A DNA stretch of 64,000 bases from Amycolatopsis bullii (GTDB taxonomy: Bacteria; Actinomycetota; Actinomycetes; Mycobacteriales; Pseudonocardiaceae): positions 1 to 64,000 of the forward strand of contig NZ_BNAW01000031.1 of assembly GCF_014654205.1 (NCBI RefSeq), written 5' to 3'. Position 1 is the stretch's first letter, and each line of letters opens with the position of its first letter. Under the pieces are notes generated by a model. That model did no database searches, had not been told where the DNA came from, and saw only the letters and a list, made by a program, of their open reading frames with translations. This document shows, in pieces, positions 30,396 through 56,230 of this stretch. Made by a program: the position numbers and the translations under genes.

Positions 30396-31700
30396 TCAGC
30401 GCGTGATCTTCTTCGCGGCTTCGACCATCTGGTTCCACGCGTCCGCCGCCGGCTTGCCCTGCTCGACCGCCTGCAGGGCCGGGCTGGACGCGTTTTCCTG
30501 GATCTGGCCGTCACCGGGGCCCTTGTACTGCGGCTTCTGGACCTTCTTGGCCTGCTCGGCGAACAGCTGGCCGACCTTCGTGTCGCCGAAGTAGTCGTTG
30601 GTGTAGTTCAGCAGCGCCGGGTCCGAGAGCGCCTTGACCTGGCTGGGGAAGGTGCCCTTGGCCTGGAACGCCTTGATCTGCTGCTCGGGCGCGGTCAGCC
30701 AGGCCGCGAGTTCGGCGGCCTCCTTCGGGTGCTTCGACTGCGTCGGGACGGTCAGGTACGAGCCACCCCAGTTGCCGCCGCCGCCGGGGAACGCCGCGGT
30801 GACCGCCCACTTGCCCGCGTTCTCCGGGCCGGCGTGCTCCTTGATCACGCCGAGCATCCAGGCCGGGCACACCTTCGTGGCGAACGCGCTCTGCTTGAAG
30901 CTGGCTTCCCACTCGGGGCTGAACGCCGTGAGCTTGGCCGACTCGCCCTTGGCGACCGCGTCGGTGACCTTGGTCCAGGCGTCCTTGAGGCCCTGGTTGC
31001 TCTCGACGGCGAGCTTGTCGTCCTTGTTGATGTAGCCCTCGGGGAGCTGGTTGACCATCGCGTTGAAGTTCTGCGAGGCCGAGTCGAACCAGGCCTTGCC
31101 GTTGCTCTTCTTCACGAAGTCCGCGCCGGTCGCGAAGTAGCTGTCCCAGGTGGCGAACAGCGGCTTGACCGCTTCGGGGTCGTCCGGCAGGCCGGCGGCC
31201 TTGAACATGTCCTTGCGGTAGCACATGGCGAGCGGGCCGATGTCGGTGCCGTAGCCGATGAGCTTGCCGTCCTTGGTCTTGGCGGCTTCGTACTTCCAGC
31301 TCAGCCAGCGGTCCGGGGAGGCGTCGGCCGGGCCGATCTTGCTCAGGTCGTTGAACTTGGAGCCCTTGTCGAGGAAGTCCGACAGGTGGCCCTCTTCGAG
31401 GGCCGTCACGTCGGCGAGACCGGAACCCGCGGCCAGCTTGGTGACGAGTTCCTCGTGGTAGGGGCCGCCCTGGCCGGTCTTGCGGTGGGTGATCTTGATG
31501 TTGGGGTGCAGCCGCTCGTACTCCGGGATGAGGCCCTCGTAGCCGAACTCGGTGAACGTCGCCAGCGTCAGCTCGACCTTCTCGTTCGGGTTCGCGGCCG
31601 CCGGCGTGTTCGTGTCACCGCCCCCGCTGCAGGCCGAGGCGCCGAGCGCCGTCATCGTGATGCCCAGTGCCAGGACCAGGCCGTTCCGGATCGTTCTCAC
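30396..31700 (-). CDS. cebE: Cellodextrin-binding lipoprotein
   Basis: 434-aa extracellular solute-binding protein (family 1). The GTG at 31700 gives a short signal peptide with lipobox LGASAC (C24) and has AAGGTGG 8 nt upstream; a longer form from 31739 is possible. The mature protein contains TFTEFGYEGLIPEY and GYGTDIGPLAMCYRKDM. First gene of cebEFG-bglC, divergent from cebR, with a CebR-type operator just downstream of its promoter. A paralogue lies at 40455. Confidence 0.9.
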   Translation of the reverse strand: MRTIRNGLVLALGITMTALGASACSGGGDTNTPAAANPNEKVELTLATFTEFGYEGLIPEYERLHPNIKITHRKTGQGGPYHEELVTKLAAGSGLADVTALEEGHLSDFLDKGSKFNDLSKIGPADASPDRWLSWKYEAAKTKDGKLIGYGTDIGPLAMCYRKDMFKAAGLPDDPEAVKPLFATWDSYFATGADFVKKSNGKAWFDSASQNFNAMVNQLPEGYINKDDKLAVESNQGLKDAWTKVTDAVAKGESAKLTAFSPEWEASFKQSAFATKVCPAWMLGVIKEHAGPENAGKWAVTAAFPGGGGNWGGSYLTVPTQSKHPKEAAELAAWLTAPEQQIKAFQAKGTFPSQVKALSDPALLNYTNDYFGDTKVGQLFAEQAKKVQKPQYKGPGDGQIQENASSPALQAVEQGKPAADAWNQMVEAAKKITR

Positions 31701-31724
31701 GTGTCCAACCACCTTGTTGACGGG

Positions 31725-31738
31725 AATGAGCGCTCTCA
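31725..31738. promoter_or_regulatory. Secondary CebR-like site
   Basis: AATGAGCGCTCTCA resembles the operator TGGGAGCGCTCCCA with three differences, in the leader of cebE. Confidence 0.45.
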
Positions 31739-31753
31739 CTGCTGGGAGCCGAT

Positions 31754-31769
31754 CTGGGAGCGCTCCCAG
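31754..31769. promoter_or_regulatory. CebR operator, perfect palindrome
   Basis: CTGGGAGCGCTCCCAG contains the exact 14-bp CebR operator known from Streptomyces. It sits 9 nt downstream of the -10 of cebE, where bound repressor would block transcription. A weaker GGAGCGCTCC core lies at 31836-31845, nearer the regulator gene. Confidence 0.9.
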
Positions 31770-31914: not shown

Positions 31915-32946
31915 GTGGGGCCTCGAGCAGGGGATGAAGAACGGCCGACACTGGAGGACGTCGCGGCGTTCGCCGGTGTGTCGCGGTCGACGGCGTCACG
32001 GGCGTTGAACGACGACGCGTACGTCAGCGCGGCGGCGCGCGAGAAGGTCCTGGCCGCGGCCCGTGACCTGGGCTATTCCCCGAACCAGGCGGCGCGATCG
32101 CTGGTCACGCGCCGCACCGGGGCGATCGCGGTGGTGCTGTCGGAGCCGGAGTCCCGGCTGCTCGACGACCCCTACCGCGCCGCCGTCATGCGGGCGGGCT
32201 ACCGGGAGCTCGCCGACGTCGGCCGCCAGATGGTGCTGATCTTCAGCGACATCCGCGAGGACCTGAGCCGCACGGTCCGGTTCCTCGAGGGCGGCCACGT
32301 CGACGGCGCGCTGGTGTTCGCCCCGCACCGGGCCGACCCGCTGCCGAAGGCGCTGCGGCTGCTGCGCATCCCGGTGGTGTTCGGCGGCCAGGCGGCCGGC
32401 ATCCGCCGCGGCGTCCACGTCGTCGACTTCGACAACGAGGGCGGCGCCCGGCTGGCGGTCGAGCACCTGGTCGCCTCCGGCAGGCGGCGGATCGCCACGA
32501 TCGCCGGCCCCCAGGACCAGAGCGCCCCGATCGACCGCCTCGCCGGCTGGCGCAAGACCCTCCTCGACGCCGGGCTCGACCCCGCCGACCTGGCCGAAGA
32601 GGGCGATTTCACCCTTTCGGGCGGCGCGAACGCGATGTCGTCGCTGCTGGCCCGGCACCCGGACCTCGACGCGGTGTTCGTCGCCAGCGACATGATGGCG
32701 GTGGGCGCGCTGCGCACCCTCGGCGGCGCGGGCCGCCGCGTCCCGGACGACGTCGCGGTGGTCAGCTTCGACGACAACGTGACACTGGCCCCGGCCATGG
32801 ACCCGCCGCTGACGTCGGTCCACCAGGACCCGCGCGAGCAGGTCCACGCCATGGTCGAGACCCTGATGCGGCTGCTCGACGACCAGAACCTGAAGCCGCG
32901 CCAGCACATCCTCCCCGTCTCCCTGGCGGTTCGCGCCTCCAGCTGA
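31915..32946 (+). CDS. cebR: LacI-family cellulose regulator
   Basis: 343-aa LacI repressor. The HTH is LEDVAAFAGVSRSTASRAL and the sugar-binding domain follows from residue about 70. Its position divergent from cebEFG-bglC and the TGGGAGCGCTCCCA operator between them match Streptomyces CebR, which is released by cellobiose. It probably represses all the enzyme genes here with the same site. The GTG at 31915 (GAGGG 8 nt upstream) is one of several in-frame GTGs (31861, 31897); the true start is uncertain. Confidence 0.88.
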   Translation: MGPRAGDEERPTLEDVAAFAGVSRSTASRALNDDAYVSAAAREKVLAAARDLGYSPNQAARSLVTRRTGAIAVVLSEPESRLLDDPYRAAVMRAGYRELADVGRQMVLIFSDIREDLSRTVRFLEGGHVDGALVFAPHRADPLPKALRLLRIPVVFGGQAAGIRRGVHVVDFDNEGGARLAVEHLVASGRRRIATIAGPQDQSAPIDRLAGWRKTLLDAGLDPADLAEEGDFTLSGGANAMSSLLARHPDLDAVFVASDMMAVGALRTLGGAGRRVPDDVAVVSFDDNVTLAPAMDPPLTSVHQDPREQVHAMVETLMRLLDDQNLKPRQHILPVSLAVRASS

Positions 32947-45498: not shown

Positions 45499-46494
45499 AT
45501 GTCGCCTTACGTCGCGGCCGAAGACCGGTACGCGGAGATGCCGTACCGGCGGGCCGGGCGCAGCGGGCTGAAGCTGCCCGCGGTGTCGCTCGGCCTCTGG
45601 CACAACTTCGGGGACGACAAGCCCCTCGACGTCCAGCGGGCAGTGCTGCGCCGGGCGTTCGACCTCGGGGTGACGCACTTCGACCTGGCCAACAACTACG
45701 GCCCGCCGCCCGGCTCGGCCGAGGCGAACTTCGGGCGCCACTTCGCCGCCGACTTCCGTCCCCACCGCGACGAGATCCTCGTGTCGTCCAAGGCGGGTTA
45801 CCTGATGTGGGACGGCCCGTACGGCGAGTGGGGCTCCCGCAAGAACCTCCTGGCGAGCCTCGACCAGAGCCTGGCCCGCACCGGGCTGGACCACTTCGAC
45901 ATCTTCTACTCGCACCGCCCGGACCCGGACACGCCGATCGAGGAGACGATGGGCGCGCTCGACACCGCCGTCCGCTCCGGGAAGGCGCTGTACGCGGGCA
46001 TCTCGAACTACTCGCCCGAGCAGACCGAAGCCGCGCTCGCCGCGTCGAAGGAGCTGGGGACGCCGCTGCTGATCCACCAGCCGCGGTACTCGATGCTGGA
46101 CCGCTGGGTCGAGGACGGCCTGCTGGACACCCTCGATGAGCACGGCGTCGGCTCGATCGCGTACTCGCCGCTGAGCCAGGGCCTGCTGACCGACCGCTAC
46201 CTCGACGGCATCCCGGCCGATTCCCGCGCGGCGGGCGCCAGCCCGTTCCTCACCAGCGACCGGCTGACCGAGGACACCCTGGCGACCATCCGCGCGCTGA
46301 ACGAGGTCGCCGAGGGCCGCGGGCAGACGCTGGCCCAGCTGGCCATCGCCTGGGTGCTGCGCCGCGGCCGGGTCACCTCCGCGCTGATCGGCGCCAGCAG
46401 TGTCGCCCAGCTGGAGAACACCGTCGCGGCCACCGCGAACCTCGAGTTCACCGACGAGGAACTGGCCGGGATCGAGCGGATCCTCGGCCGCTAG
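45499..46494 (+). CDS. Aldo-keto reductase (YghZ-like)
   Basis: 331-aa NADPH-dependent TIM barrel. Catalytic residues fit FDLANNYG (D, Y), SSKAGY (K) and YSHRPD (H). Length and the RRAGRSGLKLPAVSLGLWHNFGD pattern (landmarks RRAGRSGLKLP and GLWHNFGD) fit the L-glyceraldehyde 3-phosphate reductase/Kv-beta-like group. ATG follows AAGGAG, 36 nt after the AGE gene, so they form an operon. Physiological substrate unknown. Confidence 0.87.
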   Translation: MSPYVAAEDRYAEMPYRRAGRSGLKLPAVSLGLWHNFGDDKPLDVQRAVLRRAFDLGVTHFDLANNYGPPPGSAEANFGRHFAADFRPHRDEILVSSKAGYLMWDGPYGEWGSRKNLLASLDQSLARTGLDHFDIFYSHRPDPDTPIEETMGALDTAVRSGKALYAGISNYSPEQTEAALAASKELGTPLLIHQPRYSMLDRWVEDGLLDTLDEHGVGSIAYSPLSQGLLTDRYLDGIPADSRAAGASPFLTSDRLTEDTLATIRALNEVAEGRGQTLAQLAIAWVLRRGRVTSALIGASSVAQLENTVAATANLEFTDEELAGIERILGR

Positions 46495-46562: not shown

Positions 46563-47741
46563 TCAGCAGCCGATGCGGGTGGTCCCGACGGCCACGTCGT
46601 CGTACCACAGCGTGTCGGCGTCGCCGGCGTAGCTTTCCCAGCCGAGCCGCAGGTCGGTCACCGCCGGGCGCCAGGTCTTGGCGAGCCACTGCTGGTCGAT
46701 ATCCGGGGTCGGGACGCCGTCGACGACGAGCCCGGGCACCTCGGCGGAGTTCAGCCAGGTCCGGAGCCGGCCCGCGGCGCCGTCGACCTCGAACTCGAAG
46801 CAGGACCAGGTGCCCGTCGCCAGCGGGACGCTCTGGGCCACCCCCGCCGGGCTCTGCGCGGGCAGGGTCGCGTCGTCGGACTCGCGGTTCCACTGCAGGG
46901 CCTGGTTCTGCCCGCCGGCGCGCAGGTCGCGGCCGCCGTCGGCGGTGTCGCGCATGGCCATGAAGGCGACGTGCCCGGTGGGCAGCGGCGTGGTGTGGCG
47001 GACCCAGAACCGGCCGAAGAGGTGGTTCGAGCCGACGCCGGTGAGGCTCGTGCCCAGGAACGCGTGGTTGCAGTAGCCACCCTGGCCGGTGACCTTGATC
47101 GAACGGCTGCCCGAGTGCGCGACCGAGCTGTCGACGGCGACGGTCCCGGTGCCGGTGCAGTTGGCCGCCCCGACCGTCCAGCGGCCGCCCGGGGTGCTGC
47201 CGGTCTGCTGCTCGAAGTCGTCGCAGATGGCGGCGCTCGTGCACCCGGCGGGCGGCGGGCCGGAGGTCGTGGTGGTCGGGGTCGTGCTGGTGGGGGTCGT
47301 GCTGGTGGGCGTGGTGGGCGTGGTCGAGGTCGGGGGAGCGGGGTCGCCGCACGAGACGCCGTTGAGCGCGAAGTCCGTGGGGGTGTCGTTCGTTCCGCTG
47401 TAGGTGCCCTGGAGGCCGAACGAAACCGAGCCGCCGGCGGGCAGCGCGCCGTTGTAGGACAGGCTCTGCGCGGTGACCGCGGTCCCGGTCTGGCGGACGG
47501 TGGCGTTCCAGGCGGACGTCACGGACTGGTTGCCGGCGTAGTGCCAGGTGAGCGTCCAGGACGAGGCCGTGGTGGCGCCGTTGGTCACCGTGATGTCGGC
47601 GGTGTACCCGCTCTGCCACTGGTTGACGCGGTAGGCGACCGAGCACGCGGGGGCGGCGGCGGCCGGACCGGCCACGACCACCGCGGTGGTGCCCGCCGCG
47701 GCGAGGCAGAGCGCGGCCAGTGCGCCGGCGAACCTGTTCAT
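46563..47741 (-). CDS. Secreted CBM2 protein with Cip1-like domain
   Basis: 392 aa. Signal peptide 1-29, CBM2 about 31-131 (ACSVAYRVNQWQSGYTA opens it), a Ser/Thr/Pro linker about 135-165, then a beta-rich domain of about 225 residues starting CTSAAICDDFEQQ. The DDFE opening and the HVAFMAMRDTADGG and LGWESYAGDADTLWYDDVAV segments recall Cip1, a cellulase-induced protein of Trichoderma with a polysaccharide-lyase-like fold; I hold this at moderate confidence. No glycosidase signature is visible. Controlled by a CebR-type operator. Confidence 0.8.
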   Translation of the reverse strand: MNRFAGALAALCLAAAGTTAVVVAGPAAAAPACSVAYRVNQWQSGYTADITVTNGATTASSWTLTWHYAGNQSVTSAWNATVRQTGTAVTAQSLSYNGALPAGGSVSFGLQGTYSGTNDTPTDFALNGVSCGDPAPPTSTTPTTPTSTTPTSTTPTTTTSGPPPAGCTSAAICDDFEQQTGSTPGGRWTVGAANCTGTGTVAVDSSVAHSGSRSIKVTGQGGYCNHAFLGTSLTGVGSNHLFGRFWVRHTTPLPTGHVAFMAMRDTADGGRDLRAGGQNQALQWNRESDDATLPAQSPAGVAQSVPLATGTWSCFEFEVDGAAGRLRTWLNSAEVPGLVVDGVPTPDIDQQWLAKTWRPAVTDLRLGWESYAGDADTLWYDDVAVGTTRIGC

Positions 47742-48103: not shown

Positions 48104-48117
48104 TGGGAGCGCTCTCA
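48104..48117. promoter_or_regulatory. Isolated CebR-like site
   Basis: TGGGAGCGCTCTCA, one mismatch to the operator, 160 nt before the XRE/TPR regulator and 360 nt before the Cip1-like gene. No promoter hexamers are recognisable beside it. Confidence 0.6.
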
Positions 48118-48276
48118 GAACAACGCGCAAGGCCCGGTGACCGGAAAACCTTGTTGCGTCCTCAACTTCTCGGAAAACACACGGTTCCCGCCCTGATCAC
48201 GAGCTGGGCTGCCCCGGTCACGCTGCGGTACTGTCGTCGGTGGCGCACCCGTACTCCGGAAATCGTTGGATGAACG

Positions 48277-49731
48277 ATGAGTCGACAGGCCAAACCAGGG
48301 AGCAAGCCCTACCGCGCGCAACTGCGGGAGCGGCTGACCGCCCTGGGCTTCCCCGAGGAGGAGATCCCGGCCCAGGTGGCGAAGAACCTGATCGTCGAAT
48401 GCCGGATCCCGCCGCGCACCGCGTGGCGGCTGGCGTCCGAGCTCTCGCTCGACGTCGCAGCGCACCAGTACAACGCCGTCACCGGCGACCCCCGCGCGGG
48501 CATGCGCGGCACGCGGATCTGGGAGTACGAGCAGTGGCCGGACCGCGGCGTCCGGCCCACCGTCGCCGCGCTGCGGGTGCTGGCGCGGGTCTACGGCACC
48601 GGCTGGAAGTGCCTGCTGGGGCTGCGTGATCTCGAACAGCTGCCGGCCAAGGACCTCGCCGAGTACCACGCCGACACCGAGCCCTCGGTCTGGGCGGCGG
48701 CCGAGCCCGAGGTCGCGCCGGCCCGCACCGCCGTCCGCGGCGAAGCCCGGGCGGAGGAGGAGATCGGCGCCGGCGCCCTCGACGACGCCGTCCTGCTCAC
48801 GAAGACCAACGTGGACGACGTCCAGCTCGACGACCTGTGGTCGGACCTCGACTTCCTCGGCGGCGCCTACACCCGCACCGCGCCCTCCTCGATCCTCGAC
48901 CAGCTCGCCGTGATCGCGGACCGGACCGCTTCGCTGCTGAAGGGCCGTCAGCGGCCGAAGCAGACCCAGGACCTCCTGCTCATCGGGGCGAAGTCGAGCG
49001 CGATGATGGCCTGGATCGCCGGTGACCTGGGCCGGTACCGTCGCTCCCGCGAACTCAACTCGGCCGCCTGGCTCTACACCCAGTACGCCGACGACCTGCT
49101 CGCCCGGCGCTGGGTGCGCACGTCACAGGCCCGGGTGGCGTTCTGGGCCGGCAACGGCATCGAGTCCGCCAAGCTCGCCGCCGACGGGCTCAACTACCAC
49201 GCGGGCGGGCGCCTCACGGACGCCCCGCTCATCCTCGCCGAGGCGCGCGGCTGGTCGTCGGTGCAGGCCGAGCGGCAGGTGCTGGACGCGATCGCCCGCT
49301 GGACGGCCATCGAGGACCCGGACCTGGGGGCCGGCGGGGAGGACAGCTTCTTCAACATCACGAAGGACCGGCGGCACTACATGGCGGGCAACTCGCTGCT
49401 TTCGGTCGGGCAGGCCTCGGCCGCGCTGCGCGAGTTCGGCACCGCCCGCGAGGCCTTCGAAAAGCTGTCACTGGAGAACCGCTGGGACGCCATGGATCCG
49501 ATGATCCGGATCGACACCGGCCGCGCGCACCTGCGGCTCGACGACCTCGAAGGCGCCGCCGCCCAGGTCGAACCGCTGCTGGACGCGGGCGTGGGCCGGC
49601 AGCCGGACATGGTGCGCGCCATGCTGAAGCTGCTGGCCAGCGAGTTGTCCGGACCACGCTGGCGCTCGGCCACGACGGCCCGCAACCTCGCCGAAGCACT
49701 CCTGGACGCCCACGCTTCGGCGCGGCCGTGA
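48277..49731 (+). CDS. XRE-type HTH regulator with TPR-like C-terminus
   Basis: 484 aa. The N-terminal 110 residues follow the actinomycete pattern RTAWRLASELSLDVAAHQYN, then GTRIWEYEQWPDRGVRPTVAAL and ARVYGT, a cro/C1-type HTH. The rest (about 170-484) is helical with TPR-like pairs, as in quorum or signal-responsive regulators of filamentous actinomycetes. The recognition helix is divergent, so DNA binding needs proof. Weak ribosome site before the ATG. Its stop overlaps the AfsA-like start (GTGA), tying it to signal synthesis. Confidence 0.82.
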   Translation: MSRQAKPGSKPYRAQLRERLTALGFPEEEIPAQVAKNLIVECRIPPRTAWRLASELSLDVAAHQYNAVTGDPRAGMRGTRIWEYEQWPDRGVRPTVAALRVLARVYGTGWKCLLGLRDLEQLPAKDLAEYHADTEPSVWAAAEPEVAPARTAVRGEARAEEEIGAGALDDAVLLTKTNVDDVQLDDLWSDLDFLGGAYTRTAPSSILDQLAVIADRTASLLKGRQRPKQTQDLLLIGAKSSAMMAWIAGDLGRYRRSRELNSAAWLYTQYADDLLARRWVRTSQARVAFWAGNGIESAKLAADGLNYHAGGRLTDAPLILAEARGWSSVQAERQVLDAIARWTAIEDPDLGAGGEDSFFNITKDRRHYMAGNSLLSVGQASAALREFGTAREAFEKLSLENRWDAMDPMIRIDTGRAHLRLDDLEGAAAQVEPLLDAGVGRQPDMVRAMLKLLASELSGPRWRSATTARNLAEALLDAHASARP

Positions 49732-50564
49732 CGCCGGACCCGGCCCGGACGGAGGCGCCCGAGGTGGCATCGCACGATGTCTCGTGCCCGCGAACCCCGG
49801 AGGAGGCCTGGGCGCTCGACGGGCACACCCGGCGGGACGTGGTCGTGGTCGCCGACCGCTTCGCGCAGTTCGCCCGCGAAGACCGGGTGTTCACGCTGTC
49901 GGGCCTGCTGGCCCTGCTGGGCTCCGGCGGTCTCGTGGCGCCGGGCTGCCACTGGATCGTCCACTTCGGCCAGGGCATCGACGCGGCCGACGCCGACCTG
50001 CTCGAAACCGCGTGCGAGAAGACCGAAGGGTCCGTGCGCCTCGCGGACCCGGCCGCGTTCCGGCAGCCGTCCGAACCGCCCGCCGTCGTCCACAAGAGCC
50101 GGCCGGAGAACGTCCTGCTCGCCGGCGTGCACAGCCCGGCACCGGCGCACTGCCGGGCCGAGCTGCGGATCCACCGCGACAACGAGCTGATCCTCGACCA
50201 CCACACCGGCGAGCACGTGCAGGGCATCGTGATCATCGAGGCGATGCGGCAGATCTGCATCGCGCAGTTCGAGACCGCGATCCGCTCCGGCCTCCCGCCG
50301 GCGGCGTACGCCGGGGTGTGGCAGCGGATCGACCTGTCCTTCGAGGACTTCCTGTTCCCGCTCCCGGCCACGGTCGAGTCGCTCATCGTCGAGTCCGACC
50401 TCGGCCGCGAGACCAACCTCAAGTTCCGCGCCACGACGTCGGTGCGCCAGCAGGGGCGCACTGTGGCCACCGCCGTCATCGAGTACTCGATGATCGCGCA
50501 GGGGCGCGTCGACACCCTCGAACGCCGCAAGGCCGACCAGGCCACCCGGGCCTACCTCGGCTGA
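49728..50564 (+). CDS. AfsA-type hotdog protein
   Basis: 278 aa. The C-terminal half (about 115-270) matches one AfsA hotdog repeat: VHKSRPENVLLAG, then HHTGEHVQGIVIIEAMRQ. AfsA joins a beta-ketoacyl chain to dihydroxyacetone phosphate, the first step to gamma-butyrolactone signals. Canonical AfsA has two such repeats; here the N-terminal half (VFTLSGLLALLGSGG and HFGQGIDAADADLL) does not look like one and may be a different domain. GTG overlaps the regulator stop. The next genes could supply phosphatase and reductase steps. Confidence 0.8.
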   Translation: MTPDPARTEAPEVASHDVSCPRTPEEAWALDGHTRRDVVVVADRFAQFAREDRVFTLSGLLALLGSGGLVAPGCHWIVHFGQGIDAADADLLETACEKTEGSVRLADPAAFRQPSEPPAVVHKSRPENVLLAGVHSPAPAHCRAELRIHRDNELILDHHTGEHVQGIVIIEAMRQICIAQFETAIRSGLPPAAYAGVWQRIDLSFEDFLFPLPATVESLIVESDLGRETNLKFRATTSVRQQGRTVATAVIEYSMIAQGRVDTLERRKADQATRAYLG

Positions 50565-50595
50565 AAGCCCACTCCGGAAGGGAAACCACGCCACG

Positions 50596-51411
50596 ATGTC
50601 CGACCTGCAGCCGCAGGACCGCTCCGCGTCCTTCGCCCAGGGCCTGAAACTCATCCAGCAGCTCGGCGGGACCGACCGGCCGGCCGTGCTGGACCTGTTC
50701 GAGAGCATCGGGGAGGCCGAGTTCGGCGAGCAGTGCGTCGGGTTCATCTACGGCGACGTCTACCACCGGCCCGGCCTGCCGCTGCCGGAGCGGCAGCTGG
50801 TCACCGTCGCCGCGCTCACCGCCCTCGGGTACGCGGGTTCGCAGCTGCAGTTCCACGCCAAGGCCGCGCTGAACGTCGGCTGCACCCGCCGCCAGCTGGT
50901 CGAGGCCGTGATCCACGTCAGTTCCTTCGCCGGGTTCCCGGCCACGCTCAACGCGCTGACGGCGCTCAAGGCCGCCTTCGACGGCCTGCCCGGCGAGGAG
51001 CCGGCACCGTCCGAAGAGGCCGCCGAAGTGCCGTGGGCGGGCATCGAGGACCGCTACGAGCGCGGCCTGGCGGCGATGAAGGCGGTCGACGGCGAGGCGG
51101 GGGAGAAGGTCGCCGAGGGACTGCGGGACATCGCCCCCGACCTGGCGACCTACATCGTCGAATTCACCTTCGGCGAGATCTACTCCCGGCCGCACCTGAG
51201 CCTGCGCCACCGCGAGATCGTCACGATCGCCGCGTGCGTCGCGCTGGGTACCGCGCTGCCGCAGCTGAAGGTGCACATCCACGGGCTGCTCAACGTCGGC
51301 GGCACCCGGCAGGAGATCGTGGAGACCGTGCTGCACCTGGCGTTCTACTGCGGTTTCCCGGCCGCGCTCAACGCCATCGCGGCGGCGCGGGAAGTGTTCG
51401 CGCAGCGGTGA
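50596..51411 (+). CDS. Tandem carboxymuconolactone decarboxylase-like protein
   Basis: 271 aa with two CMD/AhpD-fold repeats: residues about 30-130 (GDVYHRPGLPLPERQLVTVAAL, then HAKAALNVGCTRRQLVEAVIH) and about 150-265 (GEIYSRPHLSLRHREIVTIAAC, then HIHGLLNVGGTRQEIVETVLH). Neither repeat has the CxxC of peroxidatic AhpD, so a lactone or hydrolase-type role is more likely. ATG 31 nt after the AfsA-like gene with GGAAGGGA. Its stop overlaps the HAD gene start. Confidence 0.88.
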   Translation: MSDLQPQDRSASFAQGLKLIQQLGGTDRPAVLDLFESIGEAEFGEQCVGFIYGDVYHRPGLPLPERQLVTVAALTALGYAGSQLQFHAKAALNVGCTRRQLVEAVIHVSSFAGFPATLNALTALKAAFDGLPGEEPAPSEEAAEVPWAGIEDRYERGLAAMKAVDGEAGEKVAEGLRDIAPDLATYIVEFTFGEIYSRPHLSLRHREIVTIAACVALGTALPQLKVHIHGLLNVGGTRQEIVETVLHLAFYCGFPAALNAIAAAREVFAQR

Positions 51412-52109
51412 GCGGCTTCGAAAAACTGCGGGTGGTCGCACTCGACTGCGACGGCGTGCTCATCGACGACACCTACCTGGCCATGATCGCCCGGTTCGTC
51501 ACCGAGCACGGCGGGGTCTACGACGCGGCGGCCGAGCGGGACGTCATCGGGCTGCGCGACATCGTCGTCGCCGAGAAGGTCACCCGGCTCTGCGGTCTGG
51601 ACCAGCCGGCGGAGCAGACGCTGAAGCAGCTGTGGGCCGCGCGGCAGGACTACCTGGCCGAGCACCCGATCCGGGTCGCCGAAGGCGCGCGGGACTGCCT
51701 GGAGGCGCTGGCGAAGCTGCCCGTGCGGCTGGTCTGCTACGGCGGCCGGACCCGCGAGCACACCTTCGACCGGTACCTGGGCGACTTCGTGGACCTGCTC
51801 GATCCCGACGTGCCCTACGTGAGCATCAACGAGCACCGCCCGGGCGTCGGCCACATCACGCGGACCGTGCTCGGCGCCGGGTTCGACGAGATCGTGTTCG
51901 TCGACGACGTCAGCCGCGTGGCCGAGGACGCCCGCGCGCACGGCGCCGGGTTCGTCGGGTTCCCGGCGAGCCCCGCCCACGCGCGCCAGCGGGAGTTCAT
52001 GGCCTCCCTCGGCGTCCGCCACTTCGCCACGTCGCTCGCCGAACTCACCCCCGAACTTCTGGCGACCGTCGACGGCGAGCTCGCGGCTTCGACACACTGG
52101 CCGCGTTGA
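51408..52109 (+). CDS. HAD-superfamily phosphatase
   Basis: 233-aa HAD hydrolase with a small alpha-helical cap. Motif I is ALDCDGVLID (nucleophile and acid aspartates), motif II the threonine/serine in LVCYGGRT, motif III the lysine region near the end of the cap, and motif IV FVDDVSRVAEDA. It probably removes phosphate from a small metabolite; in this operon a butenolide or butyrolactone phosphate is a natural guess. GTG overlaps the previous stop (GTGA). Confidence 0.87.
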   Translation: MSGFEKLRVVALDCDGVLIDDTYLAMIARFVTEHGGVYDAAAERDVIGLRDIVVAEKVTRLCGLDQPAEQTLKQLWAARQDYLAEHPIRVAEGARDCLEALAKLPVRLVCYGGRTREHTFDRYLGDFVDLLDPDVPYVSINEHRPGVGHITRTVLGAGFDEIVFVDDVSRVAEDARAHGAGFVGFPASPAHARQREFMASLGVRHFATSLAELTPELLATVDGELAASTHWPR

Positions 52110-52137
52110 GGAGTGCCCCCGACCCCTTGGAGCCGCT

Positions 52138-53139
52138 GTGAAGTTCTTCTCCCTGCCCCGTCCCGGCGCCGGGCTCGTCCTGGGTGAGCGTGACGTGCCC
52201 GAACCCGGTCCCGGGCAGGTCCTGGTCCGGCTGCGCGGGTGGGCGGTCAACGCCCGCGACCTGATGATCGTCAAGGGCTTCTACCCGAAGCCGGTGAAGC
52301 CGGACGTGATCCCGCTGTCCGACGGCGCCGGCGAAGTCGTCGCGGTGGGGGAGGGGGTGCGGGCCTGGACCGCGGGCGACCGGGTGGCGGCGACGTACTT
52401 CCCGGACTGGCTGTCCGGGCCCGGCACGCCGGAGAAGACCGCCGACGACCTGGGCGGCACGCTCGACGGCGTGCTCGCCGAGTACGCCGTCTTCGCCGAG
52501 GACGCCCTGGTCGCGGTGCCCGCGCACCTCGACTACGCCGAGGCCGCCACGCTGCCCAGCGCCGGCGTGACGGCGTGGCGGGCGGTCGTCGAGGAAGGCG
52601 GGCTGACCCCGGGGCAGAGCGTGCTCACCCTCGGCAGCGGTGGCCTGTCCACGTTCGCCCTGCAGTTCGCCGCGCTCGGCGGCGCCCACGTCGTCTCGAC
52701 GTCGAGCTCGGACGAGAAGCTCGAGCGGCTGCGCGCGCTCGGCGCCGCCGAAACGCTCAACCACGCGACCACCCCGGAGTGGGGGCCCGCCGTGGCCGGC
52801 CTGACCGGCGGCGGCGTCGACCACGTCGTCGACGTGGGCGGCGGCGGCACGATCGGCCAGTCGATGCTCGCCGCGCGGTACGGCGGCCACGTCAGCGTCG
52901 CCGGCGTCCTGACCCACGAAGGCGGCGCCGACCCGATCCTGGTGCTGGTCAAGCAGCTGACCCTGCGCGGCCTCACCAACGCCTCCCGCGAGACGTTCCA
53001 GGCGATGAACACCGCGATCGAGCGGACCGGCCTCAAGCCGGTGATCGACCGCCGGTTCGGCTTCGACGAGGTGGCCGAGGCGCTCAAGCACCTGGAGTCC
53101 CGGACCCACATCGGGAAGATCGTGCTGGAGAGCGCCTGA
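52138..53139 (+). CDS. MDR-family NAD(P)H oxidoreductase
   Basis: 333-aa medium-chain dehydrogenase/reductase. NARDLMIVKGFYP and LSDGAGEVVAVGEGV form the GroES-like domain; the nucleotide domain has LTLGSGGLSTFALQFAAL. The catalytic-zinc GHE motif and the structural four-cysteine lobe are missing, as in quinone/enoyl reductases. Last gene of the operon, 28 nt after the HAD gene, GTG with TTGGAG 6 nt upstream. It could reduce a butenolide double bond or a side-chain ketone of the signal. Confidence 0.87.
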   Translation: MKFFSLPRPGAGLVLGERDVPEPGPGQVLVRLRGWAVNARDLMIVKGFYPKPVKPDVIPLSDGAGEVVAVGEGVRAWTAGDRVAATYFPDWLSGPGTPEKTADDLGGTLDGVLAEYAVFAEDALVAVPAHLDYAEAATLPSAGVTAWRAVVEEGGLTPGQSVLTLGSGGLSTFALQFAALGGAHVVSTSSSDEKLERLRALGAAETLNHATTPEWGPAVAGLTGGGVDHVVDVGGGGTIGQSMLAARYGGHVSVAGVLTHEGGADPILVLVKQLTLRGLTNASRETFQAMNTAIERTGLKPVIDRRFGFDEVAEALKHLESRTHIGKIVLESA

Positions 53140-53491: not shown

Positions 53492-56230
53492 TTACGTGCT
53501 CGTGCAGGGTTTGCCGTTGAGCGAGATCGCGCCCGGCCGGGAGTTCACCATCCCCGAACTCCCGGTGAAGCCGAACTCCGCGCTCCCGCCCGCCGGGATG
53601 GTCTTGTTCCAGCCCGCGTCCAGCGCCGTCACCGCCGCGCCGGTCTGGGTGACCTGCGCGTTCCACGCCTGCGTCACCCGCTGGCCGTCGGCGTAGGTCC
53701 ACGTCACCGTCCAGCCCGTCACCGCCGCCGTGCCGGTGTTGCCCAGCTTCACCGAGGCCTGGAAGCCGCCCTGCCACTGGTTGGTGATCGTGTAGGCCGC
53801 GGTACAGGACCCGGACGGCACCGGGGTCGTGGTGGTCGTCGGAGTCGTGGTCGTGGTGGGGGTGGTCGTGGTGGTCGGGGTGGTGCTCGTCGGCGGCGGC
53901 GTGGTGCCGCCGGATTCGCCGATGATCACGCCCCGGCCGTTCGTGCCCACATACACCCGGCCGTACACCCGCGGGTCCCCGGTCAGCGCCGCCCCGATGT
54001 TCCCGTACTGGTGCTGGTCGTCGTTGATCCGCGTCCAGGAAGCCCCGGCGTCGTCCGAGCGGAAGATCCCGCGCACGCCGCCGATCTCGGCGATCGCGTA
54101 CAACGCCGCATACGTCCGGCCGGGTGCGGCCTTGCCGAACCCGATGTTGTCGGCTTCGGCGACGTTCGCCAGCTTCGTGAAGGACGCTCCGGAGTCGGTG
54201 GAGTGCCACAGGCCGTACGCCGTGCCGGAGCCGCCGGCCAGCCAGATGTCCCCGGCCACGCCCGGCATCGCCTTGAAGTGTGCCGAGCCGGTGGACGGCA
54301 GGCCGGTGGCCGCGGTCGCGGTGAACGTCGCGCCGCCGTCGGTGCTGAGGTAGAACCTGCCCGCCGCGAACCCGTAGAACCGCTTCGGGTCGACCCGGTC
54401 GGACTCGACCACCGCGCCGGCCGGGATGCCCGCCGACGCCGTCCACGACGAGCCGAAGCCGACGGAGTAGCTGACGTTCGCGCCGTCCGGGCTCCAGACG
54501 AACCGGCTGCCGTCGGCGGCCGCGGCCACCGTGCCGCCGCTGGCGTTCCCGCCCGGTTCGGCGCCCTGGAACCAGTTCTTCCCGCCGTCGGTGGAGAAGG
54601 CGATCCGGTTGTCGTTCGGCCGCGCGGACCGGTCGAGGGTACCCACCCGCACGATCGTGGCCGGGGTCAGCTCGGCGTAGTCGAGGCTGGTGGTCGTGGT
54701 GAACACCGGCTGCGTGTACATGGTGGCCGGGACGGCGTCGAGGCTGTCGTGCCGGAACCCGCCGATGTCCCCGAGGCCGGACAGCAGCGGAGCGCCCGAC
54801 GGCGGGCTGATCAGGTCCAGCACCGCGGTCTCCTCGAGGCCGCCGACGACCGGCTTGATCGTGATCTTCCCGCCGCTGTCCCACTTCGTGAGGTCGGACG
54901 TGCCGTAGATGGTCGCCCCGGTGCCGTAGAGCAGGTGGTTCGAGTCGAAGGGGTCGATCTCCACCGACTCGGTCATCCAGCCGAGCTTCGGCGAGGGCAC
55001 CGGGGGAGCGGCCTGGACGCCGAAGGTCAGCCACGGCACCGCGGAGATGTCCTGGGTGTAGCGCAGGGACCGGTCGGGGTAGCTCGAGAAGTCCCAGATC
55101 CGCGTCCAGGTGGCGCCGCCGTCGGTGCTGCGGAAGAAGATCACGTCCGGCCACCAGGACACCTGCGTGGCGACCATCAGCGTGTTCGGGTGCTGCCGGT
55201 CGATGGTCAGCCCGCTGTAGCCGAAGTAGTCGTCACTGCTGTCGGAGGGGATCGGGCTGATCCGCGTCCAGGTGCCGGTCTTCGTGGCGTACTTCCAGAC
55301 GTCGCCCTTCGCGCCGTCGTAGGGCCCGCCGGTGTCGCTGGTCGCGAGGTAGAGGTAGCCGCCGACCGGGTCGAGGACGCCCTTGTGCGCCAGGTACCCG
55401 GTGGGCTGGCCGGCCACCCGCGCCCACGTCGTGCCGCCGTCGGTGCTGCGGTAGACGGTGTTCTGCTTGTCCGCGACGCCGACGTAGATCGTCTGCGTGG
55501 TGCTGCCGCGGGTCCCGGTCGTCGGGTCGAACGTCACCCAGGTGACGCCCTGGTTGTCGCTGGAGTAGCCGGTCGTGTCGTTCGGATCGGCCACGTAGTT
55601 CCCGGCGTTCGGGAAGCTGGTCACCTTCGCCCAGGTGACGCCCGAGTCCGTGCTGCGCCAGAGACCGTTGCCGCTCGGCGCGCCGAGGTAGAGGACGCTG
55701 TTGCGGTTCGGGTCGATCGCGAGCCGCTCGCCCATACCGCGGCCGGGCATGTTGCCGCCGAGCTTGAACGGCAGCGCGGCCGCCTGCCAGGTGGCACCGC
55801 GGTCGGCCGACCGGAGGATCGCGCCGGTGTTCGGGTCCCAGCTGTTGGTGTACATCCCGGCCGCGACGTAGACGCGGTTCGGGTCGACCGGATCCGTGGC
55901 CAGGCTGACGACACCGTTGTGGCCCCAGTCGGTCCAGCCGACCGAGTCCAGCAGCGGGAGCCAGCGGCCGGTGGCGGCGTTCCACCGGTACGCGCCGCCG
56001 ATGTCGGTGCGGGCGTAGACCAGCCCGGGTTCGGTCTGGTTGAAGACGATGCCGGGGACGAACCCGCCGCCGGCGATCTCCGCGTTGCGCCAGGTGGTGG
56101 CCGCGGGGGCGGCCGGGGACGCCGGCGCGCCGGCGACGACCGCGACGGCGGCCGGCAGCAGGACGGCGAGCGCGCTCGCCACCAGTCGTCTCAGTGAACG
56201 GGAACGTGGGCTTCGCACGGCGTTGTGCAC
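53492..56230 (-). CDS. GH74 xyloglucanase with C-terminal CBM2
   Basis: 912-aa secreted enzyme cutting the glucan backbone of xyloglucan. Signal peptide to about residue 42 (SPAAPAA), then two seven-bladed propellers (about 45-770) with many sialidase-type turns such as STDGGTTWARV and RSDDAGASWTRI. DIGGAYRW near residue 58 holds one catalytic aspartate. A Thr/Pro linker (about 780-805) leads to CBM2 (about 808-912). GTG at 56230 is chosen because GGAGG lies 5 nt upstream. Operator and promoter match the cellulase set. Confidence 0.93.
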   Translation of the reverse strand: MHNAVRSPRSRSLRRLVASALAVLLPAAVAVVAGAPASPAAPAATTWRNAEIAGGGFVPGIVFNQTEPGLVYARTDIGGAYRWNAATGRWLPLLDSVGWTDWGHNGVVSLATDPVDPNRVYVAAGMYTNSWDPNTGAILRSADRGATWQAAALPFKLGGNMPGRGMGERLAIDPNRNSVLYLGAPSGNGLWRSTDSGVTWAKVTSFPNAGNYVADPNDTTGYSSDNQGVTWVTFDPTTGTRGSTTQTIYVGVADKQNTVYRSTDGGTTWARVAGQPTGYLAHKGVLDPVGGYLYLATSDTGGPYDGAKGDVWKYATKTGTWTRISPIPSDSSDDYFGYSGLTIDRQHPNTLMVATQVSWWPDVIFFRSTDGGATWTRIWDFSSYPDRSLRYTQDISAVPWLTFGVQAAPPVPSPKLGWMTESVEIDPFDSNHLLYGTGATIYGTSDLTKWDSGGKITIKPVVGGLEETAVLDLISPPSGAPLLSGLGDIGGFRHDSLDAVPATMYTQPVFTTTTSLDYAELTPATIVRVGTLDRSARPNDNRIAFSTDGGKNWFQGAEPGGNASGGTVAAAADGSRFVWSPDGANVSYSVGFGSSWTASAGIPAGAVVESDRVDPKRFYGFAAGRFYLSTDGGATFTATAATGLPSTGSAHFKAMPGVAGDIWLAGGSGTAYGLWHSTDSGASFTKLANVAEADNIGFGKAAPGRTYAALYAIAEIGGVRGIFRSDDAGASWTRINDDQHQYGNIGAALTGDPRVYGRVYVGTNGRGVIIGESGGTTPPPTSTTPTTTTTPTTTTTPTTTTTPVPSGSCTAAYTITNQWQGGFQASVKLGNTGTAAVTGWTVTWTYADGQRVTQAWNAQVTQTGAAVTALDAGWNKTIPAGGSAEFGFTGSSGMVNSRPGAISLNGKPCTST

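Follow-up and report, generated by a model that had tools for sequence, protein, structure and literature searches.

What does an AfsA-family protein make when it is half the usual size and keeps different company? The question is raised by five adjoining genes at positions 48277-53139 of a 64,000-nucleotide stretch of Amycolatopsis bullii DNA (contig NZ_BNAW01000031.1, positions 1 to 64,000 of the forward strand; hereafter the window). AfsA-type hormones serve in textbooks as the switch that governs antibiotic production, and their synthase is seen as a double hotdog protein accompanied by a TetR receptor; Amycolatopsis is itself a major source of antibiotics. The search for chemicals of this kind would become wider with a compact synthase that has different partners and recurs, in exactly the same five-gene unit, in three named genera of actinobacteria. 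From sequence comparison and structure prediction we consider it likely that the cassette is an apparently transferable unit that makes a small butenolide or butyrolactone derived from dihydroxyacetone phosphate (DHAP). Its core of synthase, HAD protein and reductase is well supported by the anatomy of the genes, their joint absence from one locus, a fusion and their spread.

Layout and borders of the five-gene unit

The genes of the cassette are the following, where CMD stands for carboxymuconolactone decarboxylase-like:

48277..49731, plus strand: REG, NsdA-like TPR regulator, 484 residues (NsdA_fam_reg match, scores of orthologues)
49728..50564, plus strand: single-hotdog AfsA-family protein, 278 residues, GTG start, proposed synthase of a phosphorylated butenolide (PF03756, predicted fold, E171/R174/Q175)
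50596..51411, plus strand: CMD, tandem carboxymuconolactone decarboxylase-like protein, 271 residues, accessory and separable (two PF02627 copies)
51408..52109, plus strand: HAD protein, 233 residues, GTG start, proposed phosphatase (kin to HADs beside ScbA/BarX-annotated synthases; DxD intact, D13 and D15)
52138..53139, plus strand: MDR, zinc-less MDR-type reductase, 333 residues, GTG start, proposed butenolide or enoyl reductase (PF08240 and PF00107)

All five genes are read from the plus strand in the order REG, AfsA-like, CMD, HAD, MDR. REG and the AfsA-like gene share the four bases GTGA at 49728-49731, as do CMD and HAD at 51408-51411, and the two remaining gaps measure 31 nt (AfsA-CMD) and 28 nt (HAD-MDR). 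The coordinates thus bear out the packing of five genes with two GTGA overlaps and 28-31 nt gaps described in an earlier note on this DNA. Some AfsA match is present in 31 of 80 Amycolatopsis genomes, A. bullii included, and an orthologue of at least 70% identity in 24 of the 80. The five-gene order is kept at all 24 orthologue loci (at L037 the MDR gene is cut by a contig end), and so is the 4-base overlap between CMD and HAD. The overlap between REG and AfsA is exactly 4 bases in 20 of the 24, and the HAD-MDR gap is 25-28 nt in 22, the other two having a 4-base overlap or a fusion. In this comparison a script chose the start codon nearest to the homologous start; for the fetched loci, gene starts and neighbouring genes were called with a simple in-house program, by which some genes, such as the Planosporangium regulator, were overlooked or shortened. 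Because order and overlaps are conserved, a chance arrangement is excluded. The AfsA-like protein is the least conserved of the cassette within the genus, with a mean identity of 78% over 23 orthologues, against 87-92% for the other four.

The unit also occurs beyond Amycolatopsis. The genome collection gave 60 named loci, of which 13 have all five genes and 47 do not. Eleven of the 13 are from Amycolatopsis, among them A. rifamycinica DSM 46095 (L087), and one of the eleven is cut in MDR; these named loci (L086-L096) overlap with those of the genus sample, several being from the same strains, and the two sets are not summed. The other two are from Planosporangium thailandense, with identities of 64, 54, 72, 64 and 73% for REG, AfsA, CMD, HAD and MDR, and from Streptomyces sp. 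NRRL B-1347 (61, 52, 67, 65 and 70% in the same order). A fourth lineage, genome G445, has REG-AfsA-HAD-MDR, with CMD missing from an otherwise intact cassette. Past 36 kb of the window, the cassette genes are the only called genes with matches at the Planosporangium, Streptomyces and G445 loci, and the borders of the unit are therefore those of the five genes. Plain chromosome synteny fails as the whole explanation: the flanks align inside Amycolatopsis, but the three outside loci share the cassette only. The earlier note had staked its reading on an order conserved outside close relatives, and such conservation is found in Planosporangium and Streptomyces, where the flanks are not shared. 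On this sequence comparison the cassette is apparently transferable.

A tree was built from 57 proteins of the half-size AfsA type. One branch (SH-aLRT 100) has the 12 rows from cassettes on one side, and Nocardia proteins are their neighbours (SH-aLRT 92). The tree holds 52 of the 60 named loci; L089, L094, L106, L114, L121, L141, L142 and L144 were left out as trimmed, broken or near-copy frames, the G445 protein stands outside it, and branch support is by SH-aLRT only, with no bootstrap.

Loss of the cassette can be followed in genome G008. Its flanking sequence shares 86-91% identity with the window; CMD is intact there, REG is reduced to 55 codons, and the locus no longer has AfsA, HAD or MDR. 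This genome came from a search for the downstream transporter gene in 21 of 56 non-carrier genomes, which gave 7 positives at E<=1e-150, and four of the regions were fetched. In the other three (G071, G068 and G010) the transporter gene alone matches the window, hence they are uninformative on an empty site, and G008 is the informative case.

Proposed chemistry of the synthase core

The AfsA-like protein has a single PF03756 match at residues 121-253, with 59.9 bits against a Pfam gathering cut-off of 24, and the 9.4 Mb genome of A. bullii holds no second AfsA-family match at E<=0.001. The predicted fold places a small alpha/beta domain at residues 34-106 and a FabZ-type hotdog at 113-257. A hotdog fold of the acyl type, as first read for this protein, is thus borne out by the model, which has one such unit and the invariant residues E171, R174 and Q175; the suggestion that the N-terminal half might be a further hotdog is not, the models showing the small alpha/beta domain there. 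These three residues, the E..RQ motif of the family, are unchanged in 46 of 46 aligned rows, and E171 and R174 align with the canonical second AfsA repeat, whose E..R motif we take to have a catalytic role in ScbA. The canonical signature LFDH..DHVPGM..LE..RQ aligns with LDHHTGEHVQGIVIIEAMRQ of the AfsA-like protein. The closest structural neighbours of the model are FabZ and 4-hydroxybenzoyl-CoA thioesterases. By sequence, the protein has no match among solved structures at E<=1, and the AfsA family profile finds FabZ-type dehydratases there with a best E of 4.8e-4. From family, fold and residues we infer that it carries out the AfsA synthase step.

The HAD protein matches PF00702 weakly (22.3 bits, below the cut-off of 26.4), and its sequence has no match among solved structures at E<=0.01. 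It shares 44, 43 and 39% identity, along 95-99% of its sequence, with plasmid-encoded HADs of Streptomyces NBC_01216, S. griseofuscus and NBC_00334. All three plasmid neighbourhoods that were opened, out of 19 plasmid records, have ScbA/BarX-annotated genes near this HAD. The HAD is also 44-46% identical to one that stands beside a double-repeat AfsA in two Amycolatopsis genomes, G006 and the carrier G075. The S. griseofuscus neighbourhood reads synthase-P450-HAD-ScbR-SDR with genes for a thiamine pyrophosphate (TPP) enzyme, which we take to be the order of the SRB cluster, the HAD of pSGRIFU1 being presumably the counterpart of SrrP. SrrP is a phosphatase of the SRB pathway, according to the accessible text of the report on it (PMC12301235). 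The SRB and SAB butenolide systems (SrrX, SrrP, SrrG, SrrO; SabA, SabP, SabD) resemble the window cassette in combining an AfsA-type synthase with a phosphatase and a reductase, as far as the available parts of two papers go (PMC12301235, PMC7756379), and in the kin of the HAD found on the three plasmids. They differ in having an SDR (with a P450 on pSGRIFU1), an ScbR-type regulator and Asn in HAD motif I, where the window has an MDR and Asp.

The MDR protein matches PF08240 and PF00107. As read from its sequence, the positions where zinc is usually bound carry neither Cys nor His; we call it zinc-less on the assumption that the zinc-site motif applies. In Amycolatopsis sp. 2-2 (L090), a single 576-residue open frame spans both HAD and MDR, which suggests that they catalyze consecutive steps. 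The kinship of the HAD to HADs beside AfsA-type synthases and this shared frame support the proposal in the earlier note that the two enzymes supply the steps after the synthase.

A pathway can be drawn from these parts. The single-hotdog protein, probably as a homodimer, would join a beta-ketoacyl thioester from fatty-acid synthesis to DHAP, and the ester would then close to a phosphorylated butenolide. The HAD protein would take off the phosphate, and the MDR protein would reduce either the double bond of the ring or the ketone of the side chain. CMD, which is PcaC-like and dispensable, might tailor the product where it is present.

Several observations weigh against this pathway or limit it. 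The AfsA-like protein scores 33.4 bits with the ScbA_BarX_GamBu equivalog, far from the cut-off of 200 (NCBIfam), and is without the second AfsA repeat present in GblA enzymes, according to the accessible portion of one report (PMC5735094). A Glu-to-Ala exchange in GlaE (AfsA guide RNA) left the gladiofungin metabolic profile unchanged, in the text available from that study (PMC7756420). The first position of HAD motif I, usually the nucleophilic Asp, is Asn in the three plasmid HADs (L147, L148, L149) and Asp13 in the window, so that their activity may differ and a direct transfer of activity is weakened. Membership of the MDR family says little on substrate, and the HAD-MDR frame is from one genome only and could be a sequencing slip. 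CMD separates from the rest of the cassette. The losses in G008 sit in two separate gaps and thus need not be a single event. The cassette is also rare: a match of at least 50% occurs in 1 of the 393 further genomes sampled from the class (G445), in 2 of 300 genomes of the family of G445 (G445 itself and G813, which matches the Planosporangium query at 100% identity) and in none of 392 Streptomyces genomes sampled, NRRL B-1347 being from another collection. Across the 297 genomes of a family sample, identity stays at 40% or less in every other genus. These wide searches scored the 6-8 best first-look candidates per genome, and their counts are lower bounds. Finally, the ScbR-type receptor model gives 146 matches in the A. 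bullii genome, none at or above the cut-off of 150 bits and the best at 72, although a divergent receptor may escape the model; because no canonical receptor gene is at hand, a role as a signal is unproven.

Alternative readings of the cassette

CMD poses the most serious of the alternatives. Pfam matches it twice with PF02627, and it resembles the solved 4-carboxymuconolactone decarboxylases 4g9q and 2af7; its score with the PcaC equivalog of NCBIfam (131.9) is below the cut-off of 155.7 bits. The earlier note had listed CMD as one of the five genes; its presence in the cassette is not constant. The whole genome of G445 has no CMD at E<=1e-30, the decayed G008 locus retains CMD at full length and 86% identity after losing AfsA, HAD and MDR, and G001 has a full-length CMD (63-65%) with the other four genes absent from the 15 kb fetched. 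Since it is absent in one genome, solitary in another and the survivor in a third, CMD is accessory to the cassette and can occur on its own. A second reading, that of the earlier note, would make it a true pathway step acting on the lactone ring or on a precursor, with G445 making a different end product. We give this reading somewhat less than an even chance. It draws on the constant CMD-HAD overlap and on CMD-like genes near other half-size AfsA genes. In the tree set, 15 of the 45 such genes outside the cassette have one no more than about 8 kb away, and 18 of the 47 non-cassette named loci have one too, in Actinobacteria and Proteobacteria alike, often with a tautomerase; about 3% per locus would be expected from the 17 PF02627 matches in the A. 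bullii genome. Many of these loci share ancestry, so the 15 of 45 do not count as independent cases, and the background rate, from one genome, is rough. The presence of CMD needs seven changes on the AfsA tree, and the G445, G008 and G001 cases speak against an obligatory step. Literature searches (AfsA with decarboxylase, AfsA with tautomerase, AfsA domain) found no link of half-size AfsA to CMD or tautomerase.

The product of the cassette might instead be an antibiotic or antagonist that diffuses, and not a signal, with the regulator merely switching the operon. We think this unlikely on balance, and the case for it comes from Ruegeria pomeroyi DSS-3. The half-size AfsA on its megaplasmid is 34% identical to the window protein over residues 38-243, and we take it to be SPOA0342 because it is the sole AfsA match on that record. 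Diffusible killing depends on SPOA0342, and so does transcription of the cluster in which it lies, as the accessible part of the study has it (PMC7426152); SPOA0342 is the one experimentally studied relative that we found. The neighbourhood of SPOA0342 also holds CMD, HAD-IB, AKR, tautomerase and MFS genes; neither "decarboxylase" nor "tautomerase" occurs in the main text of that paper. Half-size AfsA genes in general are often near HAD genes (35 loci) and FabH-type genes (25 loci), in a set that includes two double-repeat loci, and some are near an acyl carrier protein (ACP) or transporter gene. The window cassette itself has no transporter, ACP, ketosynthase (KS) or recognisable self-protection gene, the Ruegeria HAD belongs to another subfamily (TIGR01490), and the transcription effect could mean signalling there as well. 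The two loci are alike in the half-size AfsA with CMD and HAD genes nearby; unlike the window, the Ruegeria stretch has a single CMD, HAD-IB, tautomerase, AKR, two hypothetical proteins and LysR genes, and no REG or MDR match. The Ruegeria case supports a part for half-size AfsA proteins in making a diffusible compound, and either role would be possible for the window cassette, which in turn offers one idea for the chemistry of the Ruegeria killing cluster.

A wider proposal concerns the half-size AfsA proteins as a group. Half-size AfsA proteins, with a hotdog behind a small Rossmann-like domain, would be a separate class of DHAP-using synthases in Actinobacteria and Proteobacteria whose non-classical products are tailored by CMD and tautomerase; the window would hold a streamlined, transferable version whose product is read by the NsdA-like TPR protein, unlike the TetR route. 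As a package this seems rather doubtful. The gamma-butyrolactone systems (AfsA/ArpA, ScbA/ScbR) also keep an AfsA-family synthase, a reductase and a control gene together, and the same beta-ketoacyl and DHAP chemistry is expected; they have two AfsA repeats and a TetR receptor, whereas the window has one hotdog, an NsdA-like TPR protein and HAD and CMD within the operon. The gladiostatin/gladiofungin AfsA (PBS) domain is likewise an AfsA-family unit found elsewhere than in hormone synthases, and its cluster includes phosphatase genes, judging from the accessible text of two papers (PMC7756379, PMC7756420); there it is fused to a modular polyketide synthase, while here it stands alone with its own N-terminal alpha/beta domain.

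That the AfsA-like protein is another acyl-hotdog enzyme, a dehydratase or thioesterase reusing the fold, is improbable: its FabZ and thioesterase neighbours, the lack of a solved AfsA structure found by sequence and the alpha/beta domain in place of a first hotdog repeat would fit, but the AfsA signature aligns with LDHHTGEHVQGIVIIEAMRQ, including an Arg absent from the FabZ motif used for this comparison, PF03756 scores well above its cut-off, and the adjoining HAD is of the kind found beside AfsA-type synthases.

Control region, flanks and other AfsA neighbourhoods

REG has a sub-threshold TPR_16 match and scores 58.3 bits with NsdA_fam_reg (cut-off 75). Its Planosporangium orthologue exceeds that cut-off (86.1), whereas the Streptomyces orthologue (66.8), like REG itself, stays below; the Planosporangium protein is far from NsdA proper, with 24.7 bits against an equivalog cut-off of 830. 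In the original label XRE/TPR, the XRE part is a reading of the sequence, the Pfam and NCBIfam scans giving no helix-turn-helix model match. The REG profile has no match among PDB chains at E<=0.1. The same scans give no TetR match for the cassette proteins, and no match in the genome reaches the ScbR-type cut-off, in agreement with the earlier statement that the regulator is not the usual TetR-type receptor. NsdA of S. rimosus binds its target DNA and represses, according to the available text (PMC12243394). Standing ahead of the operon, REG would control the cassette and is the only candidate within it for sensing the product; that it does so is a proposal only.

Three further features concern control:

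48216..48276, plus strand: tentative REG promoter or leader, conserved in much of Amycolatopsis (27-row alignment)
48104..48117, no strand: CebR-type operator palindrome TGGGAGCGCTCTCA, located where the carbohydrate-binding module (CBM)-type gene and REG diverge, probably serving the CBM gene and perhaps not belonging to the cassette
31755-31768: CebR-type palindrome TGGGAGCGCTCCCA between the called genes 30396-31739 (minus strand) and 32005-32946 (plus strand)

Directly before the REG start codon, ATCGTTGGA is found in Planosporangium and Streptomyces NRRL B-1347 as well, and not in G445. We assume that CebR binds boxes such as TGGGAGCGCTCCCA and TGGGAGCGCTCTCA, and there may be cellulose-response control beside the cassette.

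The cassette is flanked by the gene for a putative secreted CBM-type protein (46563-47741, minus strand) and by a large gene for a putative secreted glycoside hydrolase-like protein (53492-56182, minus strand); both proteins appear to have a similar C-terminal domain. An AKR gene at 45499-46494 was considered as a sixth member. It clusters with AKRs near half-size AfsA genes, yet has no match in the Planosporangium, Streptomyces and G445 loci, and was rejected.

Other AfsA neighbourhoods show further gene sets. One set recurs in Actinobacteria and Proteobacteria (L146, L118, L135, L140) and comprises a half-size AfsA, two proteins of about 200 and 280 residues, a tautomerase, HAD-IB, CMD, AKR and MFS; the two proteins have no Pfam match in L118 and, as recognised by place and size, no NCBIfam match in L146. 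At L059 and L060 a double-repeat AfsA gene overlaps a HAD gene and is accompanied by two transketolase-half genes and a divergent FabH-ACP-KS-SDR set (L060 by matching clusters), an arrangement suggestive of a distinct Amycolatopsis cluster of the butenolide type. At L049 and L050 (the latter by matching clusters) a half-size AfsA stands with a class-II DAHP synthase, an HpaB-type hydroxylase, a flavin reductase and an FAD monooxygenase, a gene set which suggests that some AfsA-family members may serve aromatic products.

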